This document shows, piece after piece, positions 886 through 35,736 of a stretch of 64,000 bases of DNA; positions within the stretch are counted from its first letter, which is position 1, and each line of letters begins with the position of its first letter. The stretch is from Cyanobium sp. C1_MAG_00004. GTDB lineage: Bacteria; Cyanobacteriota; Cyanobacteriia; PCC-6307; Cyanobiaceae. The notes under the pieces are model-generated. The model did not search any database. It saw only the letters and a program-made list of their open reading frames with translations, and had not been told where the DNA came from. A program made the position numbers and the translations under genes. The DNA lies in the NCBI GenBank assembly GCA_027486935.1, contig JAIXOF010000062.1, positions 1 to 64,000 on the forward strand, in the 5' to 3' direction.

Positions 886-3800
886 TTGGTTCACATCAAT
901 CAGGTCGAGCTCAGTCATTTCAAGTCGTTCGGCGGATCGATGGCGATCCCGCTCGAACAGGGCTTCACGGTGGTGACCGGACCCAACGGATCCGGCAAAA
1001 GCAACATCCTTGATGCCGTGCTGTTCTGCCTGGGGCTGGCCAGCAGCCGTGGCATGCGGGCCGAGCGCCTTCCCGACCTGATCAACAGCGCTGTGCTGCG
1101 CAGCGGCCGCGCCGCCGAAACGGTGGTCAGCGTGCGCTTCGACCTCAGCGACTGGCAGCCCGACGAGGCCGAAGCGGGACTGGACCCCCCCACCGAAGGG
1201 CCCTGGATCAAACCCGGCCAGCAGCAGTGGACCGTGAGCCGCAAGCTGCGGGTGGCCCCCGGGGGCACCTATGCCAGCAGCTTCAGCGCCGACGGCGAAC
1301 CCTGCAACCTGCAGCAGCTGCAGACCCAGCTGCGGCGCCTGCGGGTCGACCCCGAAGGCAGCAATGTGGTGATGCAGGGCGATGTGACCCGCATCGTCTC
1401 GATGAGCGCCCGCGACCGCCGCGGGATCATCGACGAACTGGCCGGCGTGGCCCTGTTCGACAGCCGCATCGAGCAGACCCGCAGCAAGCTCGATGCCGTG
1501 CACGAGTCCCAGGAGCGCTGCGGCATCGTGCAGCAGGAACTGCTGGCCTCGCGCCACAAACTCGAGCGCGACTGCGCCCGGGCCCGCACCTACCAGGAGC
1601 TGCGGCAGCGGCATGCCAGCGGCCGCCTGCACGAGCAGGTGCTGGTGGCAGAGGAGGCCCGCCGCCAACTCGAGGCCCTGGCCCAACGGCAGCAGGCCCT
1701 GAACCAGCAGCAGGCCAGCACCGAAGCGGCGATCGCCCAGGGCGAAACCGCCGTCACCGAAGCCTCGCGCGCCCTGGAAACCCTGCAGGCCGAGGTGCGG
1801 GCCCTGGGCGAAGACCAACTGATCGCCGTGCAAGCCGAACTGGCGGGCCTGGAGGCCAGCGGCCGTGAGCTGGCCCGCCAGGCCGACAAACACCAGCGCG
1901 AGGCCGAAGACCTGCAACGCCAGCGCCACGAACTGGCGCGGCTGCAGGGGGATCTGCGCACCCAGCAGCAGGCGCTGGGGTCGGCTGCTGACGAGGGCGA
2001 GCTGCAGCAGGCCGAAGCCGACGTCAGTGCCGCCGAAGCCGCCGTGGAGCTATCGCGGCGGCGGCTGGGCGAGGTGGCCGGTCGTTCGGGCACCTGGCTG
2101 GAGGCCCAGAAGCAGCGCAGCCAGCAGCGTCAGCAACTGGCTGAACAGCTGAGCCCCCTGGAAGCCGAGCACCAGCAGCTGCTCGAACGGCTGCGGCAGC
2201 AGCACGAACGCCTGGCCGAAGTCAGCGAAGCCGCCAGCGCCGAGCTGAGCAGCAACCAGAGCGTGCAAGAGCAGCTGGCCCATGTCGACGGCGAATGGCA
2301 ACAGCTGCTCGACGCCCTGCAGCAGCAGCAGCGGCAGGTGCAGGACCTGGCCGAGGAGCTGGCCCTGCAGCAACGCACCCGCAGCCGGCTCGAGCAGGAG
2401 CAGGCCACGCTCGAGCGCGAGATCGCCCGGCTCGACAGCCGCCGCGAAACCCTGCAGGAGAGCCGCGGCACCGGCGCCCTGCGGGTGCTGCTCGAGGCGG
2501 GTCTCGAGGGGATCCACGGCCCGGTGGCCCAGCTGGGCGAGGTGAACGAGCGGGTGCGGCTGGCCCTCGAGGTGGCCGCCGGAGCGCGCCTCGGCCAGGT
2601 GGTGGTCGACGACGACCGCATCGCCGCCCGGGCGATCGAGCTGCTCAAGCAACGGCGGGCCGGGCGGCTGACCCTGTTGCCGCTCAACAAGATCCGCGGG
2701 GGTGGCGGTGGCGGGGGAAGTGGCAGCAGCGGCAGTGCCGCCCTGCAGCGCAGCAGTGGTAGCAGTGGTGGTGGCAGTGGAGCGGCGGGGCTGATCGGCC
2801 GGGCCGTCGACCTGATCGATCACGAACCGGTCTATGCCGAGGTGTTCCGCTATGTCTTTGGCGACACCCTGGTGTTCGACACCCTGGCCAACGCCCGCCG
2901 CGAGCTGGGCCGCAGCCGGGCCGTGACGCTTGAGGGCGAACTGCTTGAGAAAACCGGCGCCATGACCGGCGGCAGCCTGCAGCAGCGCAACGGCGCCCTG
3001 AGCTTTGGCCGCAGCAGCGACGGCGATGAGGCCGAACCGCTGCGCCGCCGCCTGCTCGAACTGGGCGAAAGCCTGGTGGCCTGCCAGCGGCGCGAAGCCG
3101 ACCTGAGCCAACAGCTCGAACGGCTGCGGCCCGCCCTGCTGCAGCGGCAGCAGCGCCAGGCCGCCCTCGAGGCCGAGCGGGCTGCCGCCCAGCGCAACCT
3201 GACCCCGCTGCAGCAGCGTCAGCAGCAGCTCGAGCAGCGCCTGACCCAGCTGCGCAGCGCCATCGTCAGCGACCAACAGCGCCAGCAGGAGCTGGAGCAG
3301 CTGCTGGCGCCGCTGCAGCAGCAGCTCACTGCGCTCGAGCTGACCGAACGGCAGGCCCAGGCCAGCGGCGATGCCGACCGCTGGCAGGGACTGCAACAGG
3401 AGCTGGAGGTCGCCGATGGGGCCCTGGCGGCGGCCCGCCAGCAGCGGGACGGGTTGCTGGCTGCGCGGCGCGAGCGGGGCCTCGCCCTCGAGCGGCTCAA
3501 CAGCCAGCTCGACGCCCTGACCGCCGACGAGCAGCGCCTGGTGCAGGCGGTCAATGCCCTGGTGGCCGAGCGCGGCCAATGGAAAGAACAGCAGCAGGCC
3601 GAGCAGCAGCAACGGGCTGCCCTCGAAGCGCAGCAACTGGAATTGCAGGAGCGTTTCGGTCAGCAGCGCCGGGCCCGCGATGCCGCCGAAGCCCAGCTGG
3701 CCGACCAGCGGCAACAGTTGCAACAGCGGCAATGGGAGCTGCAACGCCTGATCGAAGAGCTGGATGCCCTGGCAGCGCAGCAACGCAGCGAGACCGTCCG

Positions 3801-4515
3801 GGTCGACCAACTGGAGCGCGAATTGCCCGATCCGCTGCCCGAGGTCCCTGAGGAGGTGCGTGCCGGCGGGCTCGAGGCGCTGCAGGCCGAACTGCGCAGC
3901 CTGCAGGCCCGCATGGAGGCCCTGGAACCGGTCAACATGCTGGCCCTCGAGGAGCTCGCCCAACTGGAGCAGCGGCTTGACGAACTCGAGCAACGGCTCG
4001 ATGTGCTCAACAAGGAACGGGAGGAGCTGCTGCTGCGGATCGAGACGGTGGCCACCCTGCGCCAGGAGGCCTTCATGGAGGCCTTCACGGCGGTGGACGG
4101 CCACTTCCGCACGATCTTCGCCGGCCTGTCCGACGGCGAAGGTCACCTGCAGCTCGAGAACGCGGAATCGCCCCTGGACGGGGGCCTGACCCTGGTGGCC
4201 CATCCCAAAGGCAAGGCGGTGCGACGCCTGGCGGCGATGAGCGGCGGCGAAAAATCGCTGACGGCGCTGAGCTTTCTGTTTGCACTGCAGCGCTTCAGGC
4301 CTTCGCCCTTTTATGCCCTCGACGAGGTCGACAGCTTTCTCGATGGCGTCAACGTGGAGCGGCTGGCCGCCCTGATCGCCAGCCAGGCCGACGAAGCCCA
4401 GTTTTTGGTGGTCAGCCACCGCCGGCCCATGATCGCCGCGTCGAGCCGCACAATCGGGGTCACCCAGGCACGCGGTGCCCACACCCAGGTGGTGGGTTTA
4501 CCGCCAGCGGCCTGA
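886..4515 (+). CDS. smc: Chromosome segregation ATPase SMC
   Basis: This 1209-residue protein is the SMC subunit of condensin, which organises and segregates the chromosome. The Walker A loop GPNGSGKS is at residues 32-39. Two long Q/E/R/L-rich coiled coils flank a central hinge. Near the C terminus are the ABC signature (MSGGEKSLT, about 1118) and Walker B with the catalytic glutamate (FYALDEVDSFLD, about 1141-1152). Length is normal for the family. The start is TTG at 886, chosen because MVHINQVELSHFKSFGG is the expected SMC N terminus. Residues about 605-635, inside the hinge, are a Gly/Ser low-complexity insert (runs of glycine, then SGSSGS and SSGGGSG) that looks unlike the rest of the protein. 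The partners ScpA and ScpB are not in this window. Confidence 0.95.
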   Translation: MVHINQVELSHFKSFGGSMAIPLEQGFTVVTGPNGSGKSNILDAVLFCLGLASSRGMRAERLPDLINSAVLRSGRAAETVVSVRFDLSDWQPDEAEAGLDPPTEGPWIKPGQQQWTVSRKLRVAPGGTYASSFSADGEPCNLQQLQTQLRRLRVDPEGSNVVMQGDVTRIVSMSARDRRGIIDELAGVALFDSRIEQTRSKLDAVHESQERCGIVQQELLASRHKLERDCARARTYQELRQRHASGRLHEQVLVAEEARRQLEALAQRQQALNQQQASTEAAIAQGETAVTEASRALETLQAEVRALGEDQLIAVQAELAGLEASGRELARQADKHQREAEDLQRQRHELARLQGDLRTQQQALGSAADEGELQQAEADVSAAEAAVELSRRRLGEVAGRSGTWLEAQKQRSQQRQQLAEQLSPLEAEHQQLLERLRQQHERLAEVSEAASAELSSNQSVQEQLAHVDGEWQQLLDALQQQQRQVQDLAEELALQQRTRSRLEQEQATLEREIARLDSRRETLQESRGTGALRVLLEAGLEGIHGPVAQLGEVNERVRLALEVAAGARLGQVVVDDDRIAARAIELLKQRRAGRLTLLPLNKIRGGGGGGGSGSSGSAALQRSSGSSGGGSGAAGLIGRAVDLIDHEPVYAEVFRYVFGDTLVFDTLANARRELGRSRAVTLEGELLEKTGAMTGGSLQQRNGALSFGRSSDGDEAEPLRRRLLELGESLVACQRREADLSQQLERLRPALLQRQQRQAALEAERAAAQRNLTPLQQRQQQLEQRLTQLRSAIVSDQQRQQELEQLLAPLQQQLTALELTERQAQASGDADRWQGLQQELEVADGALAAARQQRDGLLAARRERGLALERLNSQLDALTADEQRLVQAVNALVAERGQWKEQQQAEQQQRAALEAQQLELQERFGQQRRARDAAEAQLADQRQQLQQRQWELQRLIEELDALAAQQRSETVRVDQLERELPDPLPEVPEEVRAGGLEALQAELRSLQARMEALEPVNMLALEELAQLEQRLDELEQRLDVLNKEREELLLRIETVATLRQEAFMEAFTAVDGHFRTIFAGLSDGEGHLQLENAESPLDGGLTLVAHPKGKAVRRLAAMSGGEKSLTALSFLFALQRFRPSPFYALDEVDSFLDGVNVERLAALIASQADEAQFLVVSHRRPMIAASSRTIGVTQARGAHTQVVGLPPAA

Positions 4516-29814: not shown

Positions 29815-31128
29815 TCAGCTGTGGTCGCGCAGGAACTGAATCGTGCCCGTCAGCTCGTCGGCGAAACGGTCGATCTCGTCAAGCGTGGTGGTGAAGCTGA
29901 GGCTGGCCCGGGCCGTACCGCTCAAGCCGTAATGGCGGTGCAGGGGCTGGGTGCAGTGATGGCCGCTGCGAATGCAGATGCCTGCTGAATCAAGCAGGGC
30001 GGCGATGTCGTTGGCATGCAGGCCCTCGACATCGAACGCCGCCAGGGCGCCCCGATCGAGTTGTTGCTCGGGGGTGGGGCCAAGGATGCGCAGACCTTCA
30101 ATCGCCTGCAGCCGGGCAAACAGATGGCGGGTGAGCTGCTGCTCCCAGGCGTGGATGCGCTCGAGGCCGATCGCGTTCAGATAGTCGAGGGCCGCCCCCA
30201 TGCCGATCGCCTCGCCAATGGCCGGAGTGCCCGCCTCAAACTTGTGGGGCAGCTCGGCCCAGCTGCTGTGGTCCAGATAGACGTCCTGGATCATTTCGCC
30301 GCCACCGAGAAACGGCGGCATCGCCTCCAGCAGTGCTTCGCGGGCCCACAGAAATCCCATGCCGGTGGGGCCGCACAGCTTGTGGGAGCTGCCGACCAGA
30401 AAGTCGCAATCCAGCTGCTTCACATCCACCGGCAGGTGGGGCAGGCTCTGACAACCATCCACCAACACCAGAGCGCCGACGCTGCGGGCCAGCTGGGTCA
30501 CCAAGGCGATCGGGTTGAGGCAACCCAGGGTGTTACTGACCTGGACCAGGCTCACCAGCTTGGTGCGCCCGTTCAGCTTGGCGCGCAAATCGTCCAGATC
30601 CAGCTCACCGCTCTCGGTCAGGCCCGCGTGGCGCAGCACGCAGCCCGTGCGCGCCGCCAGCAGCTGCCAGGGCACCAGGTTGCTGTGGTGCTCCATCACC
30701 GTGAGCAGCACCTCATCGCCAGGCCGCAGGAATGCCTCACCCCAGCTGCGGGCCACCAGATTGATGGCCTCGCTGGCGTTGCGGGTGAACACGATCTCGC
30801 GCGGGTTCGCTGACCCGACAAAGCGAGCCGTCTTCTCGCGCGCTGTCTCAAATCCCTCGGTGGCACGGGCGCTCAGCTGGTGGGCGCCGCGGTGCACATT
30901 GGCGTTGTCGTGGTCGTAGTAATGACGCAGGGCATCGAGCACTTGGCGCGGCTTCTGGCTGGTGGCGGCGTGATCGAGGTAGATCAGCGGTTGGCCCAGA
31001 CAAGCCGTCTGGGCCAACAACGGAAAATCAGGCCTCGTCAGGGCTGCCAGATCCGCTGCGCCGGGACTGCGCTCGACAGCCGATAGAGCGGAAGCCTGGG
31101 GGCTCTCAATCACAGGCAGAACGGTCAT
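29815..31128 (-). CDS. sufS: Cysteine desulfurase SufS
   Basis: SufS takes sulfur from cysteine for iron-sulfur cluster assembly. From the ATG at 31128 (MTVLPVIESP) it has 437 residues. The PLP lysine is Lys250 in GSSHKLCGPTG and the persulfide-forming cysteine is Cys392 in IRSGHHCTQPLH, the group II (SufS) type. The first 25 residues before DFPLL are a non-conserved extension. It is the last gene of the ftrC-sufBCDS series, 4 bases after sufD. No sufE is in the window. Confidence 0.96.
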   Translation of the reverse strand: MTVLPVIESPQASALSAVERSPGAADLAALTRPDFPLLAQTACLGQPLIYLDHAATSQKPRQVLDALRHYYDHDNANVHRGAHQLSARATEGFETAREKTARFVGSANPREIVFTRNASEAINLVARSWGEAFLRPGDEVLLTVMEHHSNLVPWQLLAARTGCVLRHAGLTESGELDLDDLRAKLNGRTKLVSLVQVSNTLGCLNPIALVTQLARSVGALVLVDGCQSLPHLPVDVKQLDCDFLVGSSHKLCGPTGMGFLWAREALLEAMPPFLGGGEMIQDVYLDHSSWAELPHKFEAGTPAIGEAIGMGAALDYLNAIGLERIHAWEQQLTRHLFARLQAIEGLRILGPTPEQQLDRGALAAFDVEGLHANDIAALLDSAGICIRSGHHCTQPLHRHYGLSGTARASLSFTTTLDEIDRFADELTGTIQFLRDHS

Positions 31129-31132
31129 CGCC

Positions 31133-32238
31133 TCAAGGCTCCAGCAGCTGCTTGGCCAGGGGCTGCCAACCCGCAGCGGCGGCCGGCAACTCCCGCAGCA
31201 CATCCTGGCAATAACCGGCCAGCAACAGCCGGGCCGCCTGGTCGGCAGCGATGCCGCGGCTCTGCAGATAGAACAGCTCCTCTTGCTGCAGCCGGCTCAG
31301 CGTGGCGCCATGGGCGCATTTGACATCGTCGGCGACGATCTCAAGCTCGGGCTTGGTGTCGACCCTGGCGCGGTCGCTCAACAACAGACTGCGGCTGAGT
31401 TGAGCCGCATCGGTGCGCTGGGCCGCCTGGGGCACCTGCACGGCACCGTTGAACACGCTGCGTCCGGCGCCAGCGGCAACGGTCTTGTGCAGCTGATCGA
31501 GCTGCCCGTCGGGCCCCTCGAACCGCACCAGGCTGTGGGTATCGGCCAGCTGATGGTCATCCACCCACTGCAGTCCCCGCAGGCGAGTGTGGGCCGCACC
31601 TGCTGCCTGGAACACCCTGGGCTCCAGCCGGCTCAGGCCCCAGCCGGCACTGACGGCCGTCAGGTTGAGGGCGCTGCCAGGAGCCTGGACCACGGCGAGA
31701 TGGCCCAGCAGTGCCGCGTCGGTTTGGCCCTGGGCAACCAGGCCCCAGTCGAGCCGGGCATCGGCGGCCAGAGTGGCTTCGCACACCAGGCTGACCACGC
31801 CGACCCCTGTCGACGACACCCGTTGCGCCACCTGCAGTGAGGCCCCGGGTTCGAGCTGCAGCACCAGGTGTACGGCCAGCAGTTCGCCCTGGTCACCGGC
31901 ATCGAACTGCAGCGCAAGCGGCTGGGAAGCGGTGTGGGCCGCAACCCGCAGGCCCAGCCGCACGGGGCTGGCGTGGGCATTCAGCCTGACCGGCCAGTGC
32001 CCGTCGCACCCGGTGTGGGCCAGGGTCTGACCTGCCACCACGTCCAGTTCAGCGTCTGTGAGACGGGACACCCCAGCCGGTAGCTGCAGCGAGGCCAACG
32101 GATCGCCACCGCTCCAGGGGCGCGGTTCGATGGCCGTCAGCACCGCCAGATCGGTGAAGCGCCAGTCCTCCATCCGACGAGAGGGCACCGGGCCGCCGGC
32201 CAGGTCTTCCCAGGTGTGGGCCAAGGTCGTCGCCACCA

Positions 32239-32242
<4 letters not shown>
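31133..32242 (-). CDS. sufD: Fe-S cluster assembly protein SufD
   Basis: SufD is a scaffold partner of SufB and SufC. The 369-residue protein has the SufBD core with [40 protein letters not shown] and LFYLQSRGI near the C terminus. The N terminus ([20 protein letters not shown], then [12 protein letters not shown]) is typical. The start codon overlaps the sufC stop by four bases. It is part of the sufBCDS operon. Confidence 0.95.
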
Positions 32243-33027
<785 letters not shown>

Positions 33028-33075: not shown

Positions 33076-34515
33076 CTAACCAACCGATCCCTCGAGTTTG
33101 AGGGCGAGCAGCTTGTCTGCCTCGGCAGCAAATTCCATCGGCAGCTGATTGAACACGTCGCGGCAGAAGCCACTGACCATCATCGAGACAGCCTCTTCAA
33201 AACCGATCCCGCGACTCTGTAGATAGAAAAGCTGATCGGCCGACAGCCGGCAGGTGCTGGCCTCGTGCTCAACCACCGCATCACTCTGCTGAGAACGGAT
33301 GTAGGGATAGGTGTTGGCACCTGCCTGGTCGCCGATCAGCATCGAGTCGCACTGGCTGTAGTTCTTGGCCCCAACAGCCTTGGGTCCGATCTGAACCAGA
33401 CCGCGGTAGCTGTTGATCGAGTGCCCGGCACTGATGCCCTTGCTGACAATGGTGGAACGGGTGCGGGGCCCCACGTGGATCATTTTGGTGCCGGTGTCTG
33501 CCTGCTGGCGGTTGTTGGTGAGAGCGACCGAGTAAAACTCGCCGACCGATTCAGCCCCTTGCAGCACACAACTGGGATACTTCCAGGTGATCGCCGAACC
33601 GGTTTCCACTTGAGTCCAGCTGATTTTGCTGCGGGCGCCGCGGCATTGCCCGCGCTTGGTGACAAAGTTGTAAATACCACCGACACCGTTTTCATCGCCG
33701 GCGTACCAGTTCTGCACGGTCGAATATTTGATCGAAGCGTCATCCAACACAACCAGCTCCACCACAGCGGCATGGAGCTGATTGGTGTCAAACATCGGCG
33801 CGGTACATCCCTCGAGATAGCTCACCGAGGCGCCCTCTTCGGCCACGATCAGGGTGCGCTCGAACTGGCCGGTATCGCCTGAGTTGATGCGGAAATAGGT
33901 GGACAGCTCCATCGGGCAGGTCACTCCCTTGGGAATGAACACAAAGGAGCCATCGCTGAAGACTGCCGAGTTGAGCGCGGCAAAGTAGTTGTCGTTACTG
34001 GGCACCACAGTGCCCAAATAACGCTCGATCAGCTCAGGATGCTCCTTAACCGCTTCGCTGATGGAGCAAAAAATAACCCCGTGCTCGGCGAGCTGCTCCT
34101 TGAACGTGGTGGCGATTGAGACACTGTCGAATACCGCATCAACGGCCACATTAGAGAGACGCTTTTGCTCGCTCAGCGGAATACCAAGCTTGTCAAAGGT
34201 CTCCAGCAGCTTGGGGTCCACCTCATCGAGACTGCTTTTCTTGGCCTGCTGCTTGGGAGCCGCGTAATAAATGATGTCCTGGTAATCGATCGGCGGATAA
34301 CCCAGGGCCGCCCAATCGGGCTCCTGCATCTGCAACCACTGCCGGTAAGCACGCAAACGAAAGTCGAGCAAAAAAGCCGGCTCGTCTTTTTTGGCCGAGA
34401 TCAGGCGAACGACATCCTCACTCAACCCTTTGGCGATCTTTTCGGTTTCAATATCGGTCACGAAGCCGTATTTGTACGGCTGCGAGACCAGATCACCAAC
34501 GGCTGCGGAGGTCAT
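33076..34515 (-). CDS. sufB: Fe-S cluster assembly scaffold SufB
   Basis: The 479-residue protein is SufB, the central scaffold of the SUF system. Recognisable blocks are [20 protein letters not shown] at the N terminus, [25 protein letters not shown]-like [40 protein letters not shown] and YLQSRGI near the C terminus. Conserved cysteines are in SYLEGC and SQCDS. Codon use is slightly more AT-rich than its neighbours, as often seen in highly expressed conserved genes. The start ATG at 34515 is 9 bases from the ftrC stop, so the two are one transcription unit. Confidence 0.97.
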
Positions 34516-34524
34516 CAGAACAAT

Positions 34525-34881
34525 TCAACCGGAAATACTGCTTTTGATCTCGTCCATCGAGATCGTCTGCTTGTCACAACGGAACGCGTTGTCTTCGGTG
34601 AGGAACAGCATGCAATGGCATTCATGGCGCTCGCGCATCGGCACGCAGGGGCAGTTCCAGAACGCCTGAGCCACTTCGGCTTCCTTGTCCTCGTAGTGGC
34701 GGCAAGGGCAGAGCGCGGCACCGAGCTGGTCCTTGTGGCGGGCCAGCCCCTCGAGCACGACAGCCGTCACGCCACTGTCACTGCAGAAATAGGTGCCGGT
34801 GCGCTGGGCATAGGTCTCGGCGAACTTACGGATCACCTCAAGACTCTCGGAGCTCGGCGCAGAAGCAGCGGGATCAGCCAT
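34525..34881 (-). CDS. ftrC: Ferredoxin-thioredoxin reductase catalytic subunit
   Basis: FtrC carries the [4Fe-4S] cluster and redox disulfide that pass electrons from ferredoxin to thioredoxin, linking light to enzyme activity. The 118-residue protein has the family cysteines at 58 and 60 (ALCPCRHYED), 77 and 79 (FWNCPCVPMR) and 88 and 90 (HECHCMLF), plus Cys33 and Cys102. It is the first gene of the minus-strand series leading into sufBCDS and diverges from sufR. Putting an Fe-S enzyme directly under the SUF promoter region suggests joint control by SufR. The variable subunit ftrV is not in the window. Confidence 0.96.
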   Translation of the reverse strand: MADPAASAPSSESLEVIRKFAETYAQRTGTYFCSDSGVTAVVLEGLARHKDQLGAALCPCRHYEDKEAEVAQAFWNCPCVPMRERHECHCMLFLTEDNAFRCDKQTISMDEIKSSISG

Positions 34882-34924: not shown

Positions 34925-34967
34925 GTTTCGAAGACGAAGGCGTTTCGAAACCAAAGGGTTTCTAAAC
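34925..34967. promoter_or_regulatory. Three phased palindromic elements, candidate SufR operator
   Basis: The ftrC-sufR intergenic region holds GTTTCGAAGA (34925-34934), the perfect palindrome GTTTCGAAAC (34942-34951) and GTTTCTAAAC (34958-34967), with centres 16-17 bases apart. The last two together make GAAAC-CAAAGG-GTTTC (34947-34962), i.e. AAC-N6-GTT, the core of the CAAC-N6-GTTG sites reported for SufR in Synechocystis. The site is 44-86 bases upstream of the ftrC start. SufR as the ligand is inference. Confidence 0.5.
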
Positions 34968-34976
34968 CCACCGTAG

Positions 34977-34993
34977 GCCACCGGAACGGTGGC
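34977..34993. promoter_or_regulatory. 7-bp inverted repeat in the ftrC-sufR spacer
   Basis: GCCACCG-GAA-CGGTGGC is a perfect inverted repeat with a 3-base centre, 10 bases beyond the GTTTC cluster on the sufR side. No T-run follows in either direction, so a second operator or a 5' leader hairpin is more likely than a terminator. Confidence 0.4.
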
Positions 34994-35091
34994 TGGAGGC
35001 TGGGGCCATTGTGCCCCTTGGAAGCCGCCCCCTGACGCAAACCCCCAATTGCCTGCGACGCGTGGCATGGTTGTGAAGCGACCGGTTTGCA

Positions 35092-35736
35092 ATGCGCGCC
35101 ACCGTCCTGGCCCAATCCCAACCGACCACACGTAAGGGGATCCTGGCCATCCTGCTGCGTCTGGGCGAGGCGACGGCCAATGACATCGCCACGCGCCTGG
35201 AGATTTCGGTGCAGGCCACCCGCCGCCATTTGCGGGGGCTGGAGGACGACGGTCTGGTCGAGGGCTCCTCAAGCGCAGAAGGTCCAGGTCGCCCCAGTTA
35301 TCGCTGGCAGCTGACCAGCAAGGGACATGCCCAGTTTGCCGATGGCAGCGAAAGCTTTGCCTTGACCCTGCTGGAGTCTCTGAGCAAAGAGCTTCCTCAA
35401 GACGCTCTGCAGTCGCTGCTGCAGCATCAAGCGGTACAACAGGCCGCCCAATACCGAGAACGCTTGGGGGACGGCCCGCTTGAGCAACGGGTTGCGCGCC
35501 TGGTGGAGCTGCGCAAGGCCGAGGGCTACGTCGCCGAGTGCGACCTGGAGGCTGAAGGCTGGGTGATCCGCGAATTTCATTGTTCGGTGATGCGAATCGC
35601 CGAGCAATTCCCCTGCGTCTGCGATCAGGAGTTGCAACTGATCCGCCACACCTTTCCCGACTGCCAGGTGGAACGGGTGCACTGGCGGCTGGAAGCCGGC
35701 CACTCCTGTGGCTTCAGGCTGACCCCCCTGGCCTGA
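35092..35736 (+). CDS. sufR: Iron-sulfur cluster biosynthesis repressor SufR
   Basis: SufR represses the suf operon when Fe-S supply is sufficient. The 214-residue protein has an N-terminal DeoR/ArsR-like winged helix (GILAILLRLGEATANDIATR, then QATRRHLRGLEDDGLVE) and a C-terminal half with the cluster-ligand cysteines Cys164, Cys175 and Cys177 (HCSVMRIAEQFPCVCDQEL), plus Cys191 and Cys206. The ATG at 35092 gives MRATVLAQSQ. It is divergent from ftrC-sufBCDS, the usual cyanobacterial arrangement, with palindromic elements in the shared 210-base region. Confidence 0.95.
   Translation: MRATVLAQSQPTTRKGILAILLRLGEATANDIATRLEISVQATRRHLRGLEDDGLVEGSSSAEGPGRPSYRWQLTSKGHAQFADGSESFALTLLESLSKELPQDALQSLLQHQAVQQAAQYRERLGDGPLEQRVARLVELRKAEGYVAECDLEAEGWVIREFHCSVMRIAEQFPCVCDQELQLIRHTFPDCQVERVHWRLEAGHSCGFRLTPLA

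Follow-up and report, generated by a model that had tools for sequence, protein, structure and literature searches.

Which letters in the spacer between sufR and the suf operon of Cyanobium sp. C1_MAG_00004 would be recognised by the regulator SufR, and are they the ones by which SufR sites are known elsewhere? In the window (the whole stretch of 64,000 nucleotides that was analysed), sufR is divergent from a minus-strand series of ftrC, sufB, sufC, sufD and sufS (Table 1). These gene identities, proposed in an initial annotation, were borne out by profile scores, which place the regulator among the SufR proteins. From residue 164 onward it carries C-x12-C-x13-C-x14-C, the cluster pattern given for SufR in the available part of a review (PMC8593673). 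A search of solved structures by sequence returned no SufR relative at E 0.001.

Table 1. Coordinates of genes and sequence elements at the suf locus of the window.
Feature	Position	Strand	Basis or remark
sufS	29815-31203	-	above curated cut-off; start codon provisional
sufD	31133-32242	-	above curated cut-off
sufC	32239-33027	-	above curated cut-off
sufB	33076-34515	-	above curated cut-off
ftrC (ferredoxin-thioredoxin reductase catalytic chain)	34525-34881	-	PF02943
Palindrome 1, GTTTCGAAGA	34925-34934		3/5 pairs by eye; outside conserved operator
Palindrome 2, GTTTCGAAAC	34942-34951		5/5 pairs by eye
Predicted SufR operator, 26-bp frame	34943-34968		gap-free alignment with 43 relatives; 16.7 bits by model R1
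Palindrome 3, GTTTCTAAAC	34958-34967		4/5 pairs by eye
Putative extended -10 of ftrC-suf promoter, GTGGCCTACGGT	34970-34981	-	by eye
CCATTGTGCCC element	35006-35016		in 6/6 same-genus spacers
Putative sufR promoter element, GTGGCATGGTT	35062-35072	+	GTGGCAT common to 6/6 same-genus spacers; function putative
sufR	35092-35736	+	TIGR02702, 203.6 bits, above the curated cut-off of 178.8 bits

The inverted repeat and its resemblance to SufR sites

Direct reading of positions 34925-34967 gives GTTTCGAAGACGAAGGCGTTTCGAAACCAAAGGGTTTCTAAAC, in which the initial annotation had seen three phased near-palindromes that included a SufR-like site. The three 10-mers are present, with centres 17 and 16 bases apart, and the last two do form GAAAC-N6-GTTTC at 34947-34962. 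More fully, the inner halves of palindromes 2 and 3 make up the inverted repeat CGAAAC-CAAAGG-GTTTC at 34946-34962, and the operator letters in the window read TTTCGAAAC-CAAAGG-GTTTCTAAA. The exact GAAAC-N6-GTTTC pattern occurs once in the window, where base composition predicts 0.016 per 64 kb and 5e-5 in the 210-bp spacer. When one mismatch is tolerated the window contains 2 matches, compared with an expectation of 0.67, and 11 of 100 shuffles reach the same count, so that the statistics of the window by itself are modest and conservation has to decide.

The SufR operators of Synechocystis PCC 6803 are said to have been described by Wang in 2004 and Shen in 2007. The site is CAAC-N6-GTTG, at which holo-SufR represses, according to the available parts of PMC8593673 and PMC13421787, and its two copies differ in affinity (as cited in the available part of PMC6034842). 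As far as these parts of the sources go, the window resembles Synechocystis in having an inverted repeat with an AAC-N6-GTT core and six-base spacer, placed between the divergent sufR and suf genes, and in the four-cysteine pattern of SufR. It differs in that CGAAAC...GTTTC replaces CAAC...GTTG, in having one operator rather than two, and in the presence of ftrC between sufR and sufB. The likeness to SufR sites originally claimed therefore holds for the core and not for the half-site letters.

Conservation of the predicted operator and of its regulator

We searched 99 genomes, that of the window included, for SufR and obtained a match in 83; the sufR locus was then read in 46 genomes of the window's family and in 24 outside it. 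The 13 SufR-matching genomes left out comprise 12 from outside the family, mostly with weaker or split matches, and one family genome (G007) in which the match is a fragment of only 21 residues. Every one of the 46 family loci has sufR pointing away from ftrC and/or sufB (the stretch of L017 stops short of sufB). The sufR/suf spacer contains GAAAC-N6-GTTTC exactly in 42 of the 46 and with one mismatch in two more (L033, L039); of the other two spacers one is masked with N (L032) and one has no clear site despite the presence of sufR (L045). Where sufR is about 1.2 kb away (L017, genome G029), the operator is still beside ftrC.

The 44 suf sites align without gaps (alignment A1) to a consensus that in outline is TTACGAAAC-N6-GTTTCGTTA. 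Eight columns are invariant, three more are at least 90% conserved and the six central bases are variable; the 26-mer of the alignment starts one base before the frame in Table 1. The site in the window scores lower with model R1 than most family suf sites. It sits on the ftrC-suf side of the spacer, with approximately 95 bp between it and the conserved sufR-proximal element, and the second operator of most loci outside the family is missing; both points bear on the initial proposal that one regulator might control the two sides.

The spelling separates the family from other sufR-bearing genomes. CAAC-N6-GTTG is found in 23/24 spacers outside the family versus 1/46 inside, and GAAAC-N6-GTTTC in none of the 24; the AAC-N6-GTT core with six-base spacer is common to both (43/46 and 24/24). 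One family spacer (L042) contains a CAAC-N6-GTTG match as well as the GAAAC-N6-GTTTC operator, perhaps by chance. Two sites 38-49 bp apart occur in 18/24 outside spacers (a hand count with a slightly stricter pattern), against more than one core in only 2/46 family spacers, the window having a single one. The recognition helix of SufR differs as well: it reads S-V-Q..RR(H/Q)LR in 46/46 family proteins, while outside the family V is replaced by P, L or A in 24/24 and HLKD is found in 23/24. We infer that the changed helix residues cause the change in operator letters.

If SufR is the protein that binds, the repeat should go missing along with it. A usable sufR is lacking in 15 family genomes (14 gave no match, and the other is G007); the sufB locus was obtained from seven of them, and none had the operator repeat upstream of sufB. 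In these loci (L076-L082) sufB also has no upstream sufR, and several seem, by eye, to have a reading frame directly upstream. When sampling was widened to 300 family genomes, 197 had at least 90% completeness and no more than 5% contamination. SufR was found in 147 of these and ACGAAAC-N6-GTTTC, counted genome-wide so that matches at the sigma-factor locus described below are included, also in 147. Cross-tabulated by hand, with totals that match both tallies, the pattern is present in 144/147 genomes with sufR versus 3/50 without. The three sufR-bearing exceptions are a genome with a masked spacer (G053) and two with the core present and its flanks changed (G124, G154). The three positives without sufR are G015, G293 and G304, the last two with one pattern match each, and a repeated search for sufR in these two again found none at E 0.001. 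The reversed pattern, used as a control, turns up in 15 of the 50 by hand count, so the three matches are not above chance. The sufR-less genomes are concentrated in few genera, and the 50 are therefore not independent events.

Taken together, the family conservation, the co-occurrence with sufR, the textbook sites outside the family and the recognition helix changing in step identify the repeat as the family's predicted SufR operator, which is known in layout, changed in its letters and present in one copy. The proposal of a SufR-type operator between ftrC and sufR is thus upheld, and we consider it very probable that 34943-34968, with its family-specific letters, is the single SufR operator of the ftrC-sufBCDS operon, a reading that draws on conservation, position by the operon, absence without sufR and the helix.

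Promoter-like elements lie around the operator. On the minus strand GTGGCCTACGGT directly precedes it, and GTGCCCTAGGCT-like letters are found in many relatives at varying distance; a loose form of this putative -10 element after the operator was seen in only 21/44 family rows, and a scan with the sigma-70 consensus found no promoter there. Judged by eye, GTGGCCTACGGT may be the extended -10 element of the ftrC-suf promoter, in which case the start would fall at the operator. Before sufR, TGGCA followed by A, C or T is present in 25/44 family rows, and CCATTGTG or TCATTGTG, forms of the CCATTGTGCCC element, in 13/44.

A sigma-factor gene as a second predicted target

We applied model R1, a sequence-only model trained solely on the 44 suf sites, to 61 family genomes with stricter filters. 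The best match among those listed for the window's own genome is at C96:212-235 (L072), with 19.8 bits versus 16.7 for the suf site. Immediately downstream of it is a type-II sigma-factor gene, truncated by the contig end and oriented divergently to a pseudouridine synthase; assembly breaks interrupt this gene in several genomes, the present one included. The gene family is TIGR02997 (435 bits against a cut-off of 384.5, judged on the copy of G039). At least 21 of the 61 genomes, the window's own among them, have the operator before the sigma gene, 20 with the exact core and one (G041) with a mismatch. A sigma relative was found beside 20 of these sites and a pseudouridine synthase beside 19, L135 being counted by the synthase alone and L123 and L128 by the sigma gene alone. 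A further one-mismatch site in G055 (L157) was left out of the 21.

Of these 21 genomes, 20 have a SufR match; the other is 62% complete. Within the 32 of the 61 that passed the quality cut, the sigma-locus operator is present in at least 15/26 genomes with sufR versus 0/6 without, by hand count among the matches listed. In 18 of the 20 sigma-locus sites shown the operator comes directly after TGGTA or TGATA, as though superimposed on a promoter. Two sigma copies were compared in seven genomes (e.g. G039:C1:836281 and G039:C1:94312); they are 84-95% identical and the operator is at one copy only. In the sigma tree each pair clusters by genome, six with strong support and that of G028 weakly (80/75), and most operator-bearing copies share the same neighbour across genera. 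Our reading is that gene conversion keeps the proteins alike while their promoters stay different, the alternative being repeated duplication. We infer that SufR also acts through this operator at the sigma locus, where it would repress one member of a pair of closely similar type-II sigma-factor genes.

An exact scan with TTACGAAAC-N6-GTTTCGTWA over one genome per species (84,980 species) gave 100 stretches, 75 of them cyanobacterial by record title (Synechococcus, Cyanobium, Vulcanococcus, Aphanothece and others), from genomes that in part overlap the earlier sets. Of the cyanobacterial matches, 32 lie within 700 bp of a suf relative and 42 within that distance of a sigma and/or synthase relative; the stretch with the remaining match (L199) ends, by eye, in the start of a sigma gene, so that all 75 are at a suf or a sigma locus. 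One further match, in an actinobacterial MAG contig (L195, Promicromonosporaceae), places the same repeat at 2167-2190, about 60 bp before a SufR-like gene (2250-2942; 66.4 bits with TIGR02702, below the cut-off) that is followed by sufB (2939-4381); the operator may have come into use there independently. The other 24 non-cyanobacterial matches have no suf, sigma or synthase relative within 700 bp, and the same was true of five exact matches in viral contigs (L277-L281) for suf, sigma and pseudouridine-synthase relatives.

In the window's own genome an operator-like site of 16.8 bits at C209:770-791 (L075) precedes an ammonium-transporter gene. The nearest relative (L284) shows, by eye, a change in one half-site, and the other five ammonium-transporter loci (L289 includes just part of the gene) have no core-like match upstream; given these loci, the site is probably due to chance or specific to the species. 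Another site, on C75 (L071), is inside a reading frame and is probably fortuitous. For the R1 or pattern matches L113, L121, L127, L130, L131, L132, L136 and L140-L146, tblastn found no adjoining suf or sigma gene, except for a weak sufB-like stretch beside the match in L143.

We regard the sigma-factor gene as a strongly supported but unproven second SufR target, predicted from these sequence comparisons. No tie between SufR and a sigma factor was found in the literature searched, including the available parts of PMC7393227 and PMC12274634, and the gene is not among the SufR targets tabulated in the available part of PMC13421787. GAAAC-N6-GTTTC as a SufR site was likewise not found in that search, although preprints, most subscription papers or RegPrecise, all beyond its scope, may record the motif; the accessible text of PMC7058544, PMC6034842, PMC8593673, PMC13421787 and PMC11995493 contains neither this site nor a SufR-sigma tie.

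Competing readings, proposed mechanism and significance

The phasing of the three palindromes, which are indeed present at helical spacing, could mean a composite operator for a cooperative regulator. The two nearest relatives (L002 and L003, with SufR 87% identical) argue otherwise: they retain the GAAAC-N6-GTTTC repeat but lack palindrome 1, which is for this reason ruled out as a functional unit. Palindromes 2 and 3 are not separate units either but two half-sites of one operator, with flanks that differ elsewhere in the family, where their outer halves are mostly TTA-C and G-TTA and not GTTTC or AAAC. Alignment of the spacers has thus preserved one part of the original picture, the repeat, and removed the three-part unit, and a composite operator appears extremely unlikely. 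Still less credit can be given to a weak terminator or RNA element of the ftrC leader, whose probability we take to be negligible. There is one terminator-like match on the minus strand (34969-34956; 1 found versus 0.4 expected), but its T-rich tail is broken by GG and coincides with the conserved half-site, the six spacer bases vary freely while both half-sites are fixed, and the repeat recurs upstream of the sigma gene.

That the repeat serves another family-specific regulator, coincidentally absent wherever SufR is, would agree with the missing CAAC...GTTG letters, and SufR binding here is a prediction. Such a regulator would nevertheless have to share the spacer, core and spacing of SufR sites outside the family, the recognition helix of SufR would have to differ in step with the operator by coincidence, and the same repeat stands before the actinobacterial sufR-like gene with sufB; we hold this to be very unlikely. 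Somewhat better, yet still unlikely, is that the operator chiefly autoregulates sufR, with suf control secondary. Autoregulation is reported for Synechocystis SufR (available parts of PMC6034842 and PMC13421787), but here the operator remains with ftrC when sufR is displaced, is some 95 bp from the element before sufR, and is seldom accompanied by a second core.

Related SufR systems are known from other species. In Synechococcus elongatus PCC 7942, ftrC is co-transcribed with suf and its control by SufR has been proposed (RegPrecise and a preprint, as cited in the available part of PMC13421787), so control of ftrC-suf would be known in kind and the family operator a variant. In Streptomyces avermitilis, SufR is likewise a 4Fe-4S repressor with an operator laid over a promoter, CAAC-N6-GTTG overlapping the -10 region (cited in the accessible text of PMC11995493); the half-site letters differ from those of the window and the operator there controls sufR's own promoter. 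By analogy with Synechocystis SufR, a dimer with intact [4Fe-4S] clusters would bind both half-sites, about one helical turn apart, and block RNA polymerase at the ftrC-suf start. With clusters lost, reduced or impossible to build, SufR would release the operator and ftrC and suf would be expressed.

For the Synechococcus/Cyanobium-type family as a whole, we consider it likely that SufR has shifted in DNA specificity and acquired a second target, repressing one of two sigma-factor genes. The predicted site would be the defining operator of SufR control in picocyanobacteria, and a regulator and operator that differ in step between families offer a clean case for studying specificity shifts. The near-identical operators before the sigma gene suggest an unreported link between cluster supply and gene expression, and we propose that iron-sulfur status feeds into sigma-factor use. 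If true, cells losing iron-sulfur clusters would make more of a sigma factor whose second copy is driven by a different promoter.
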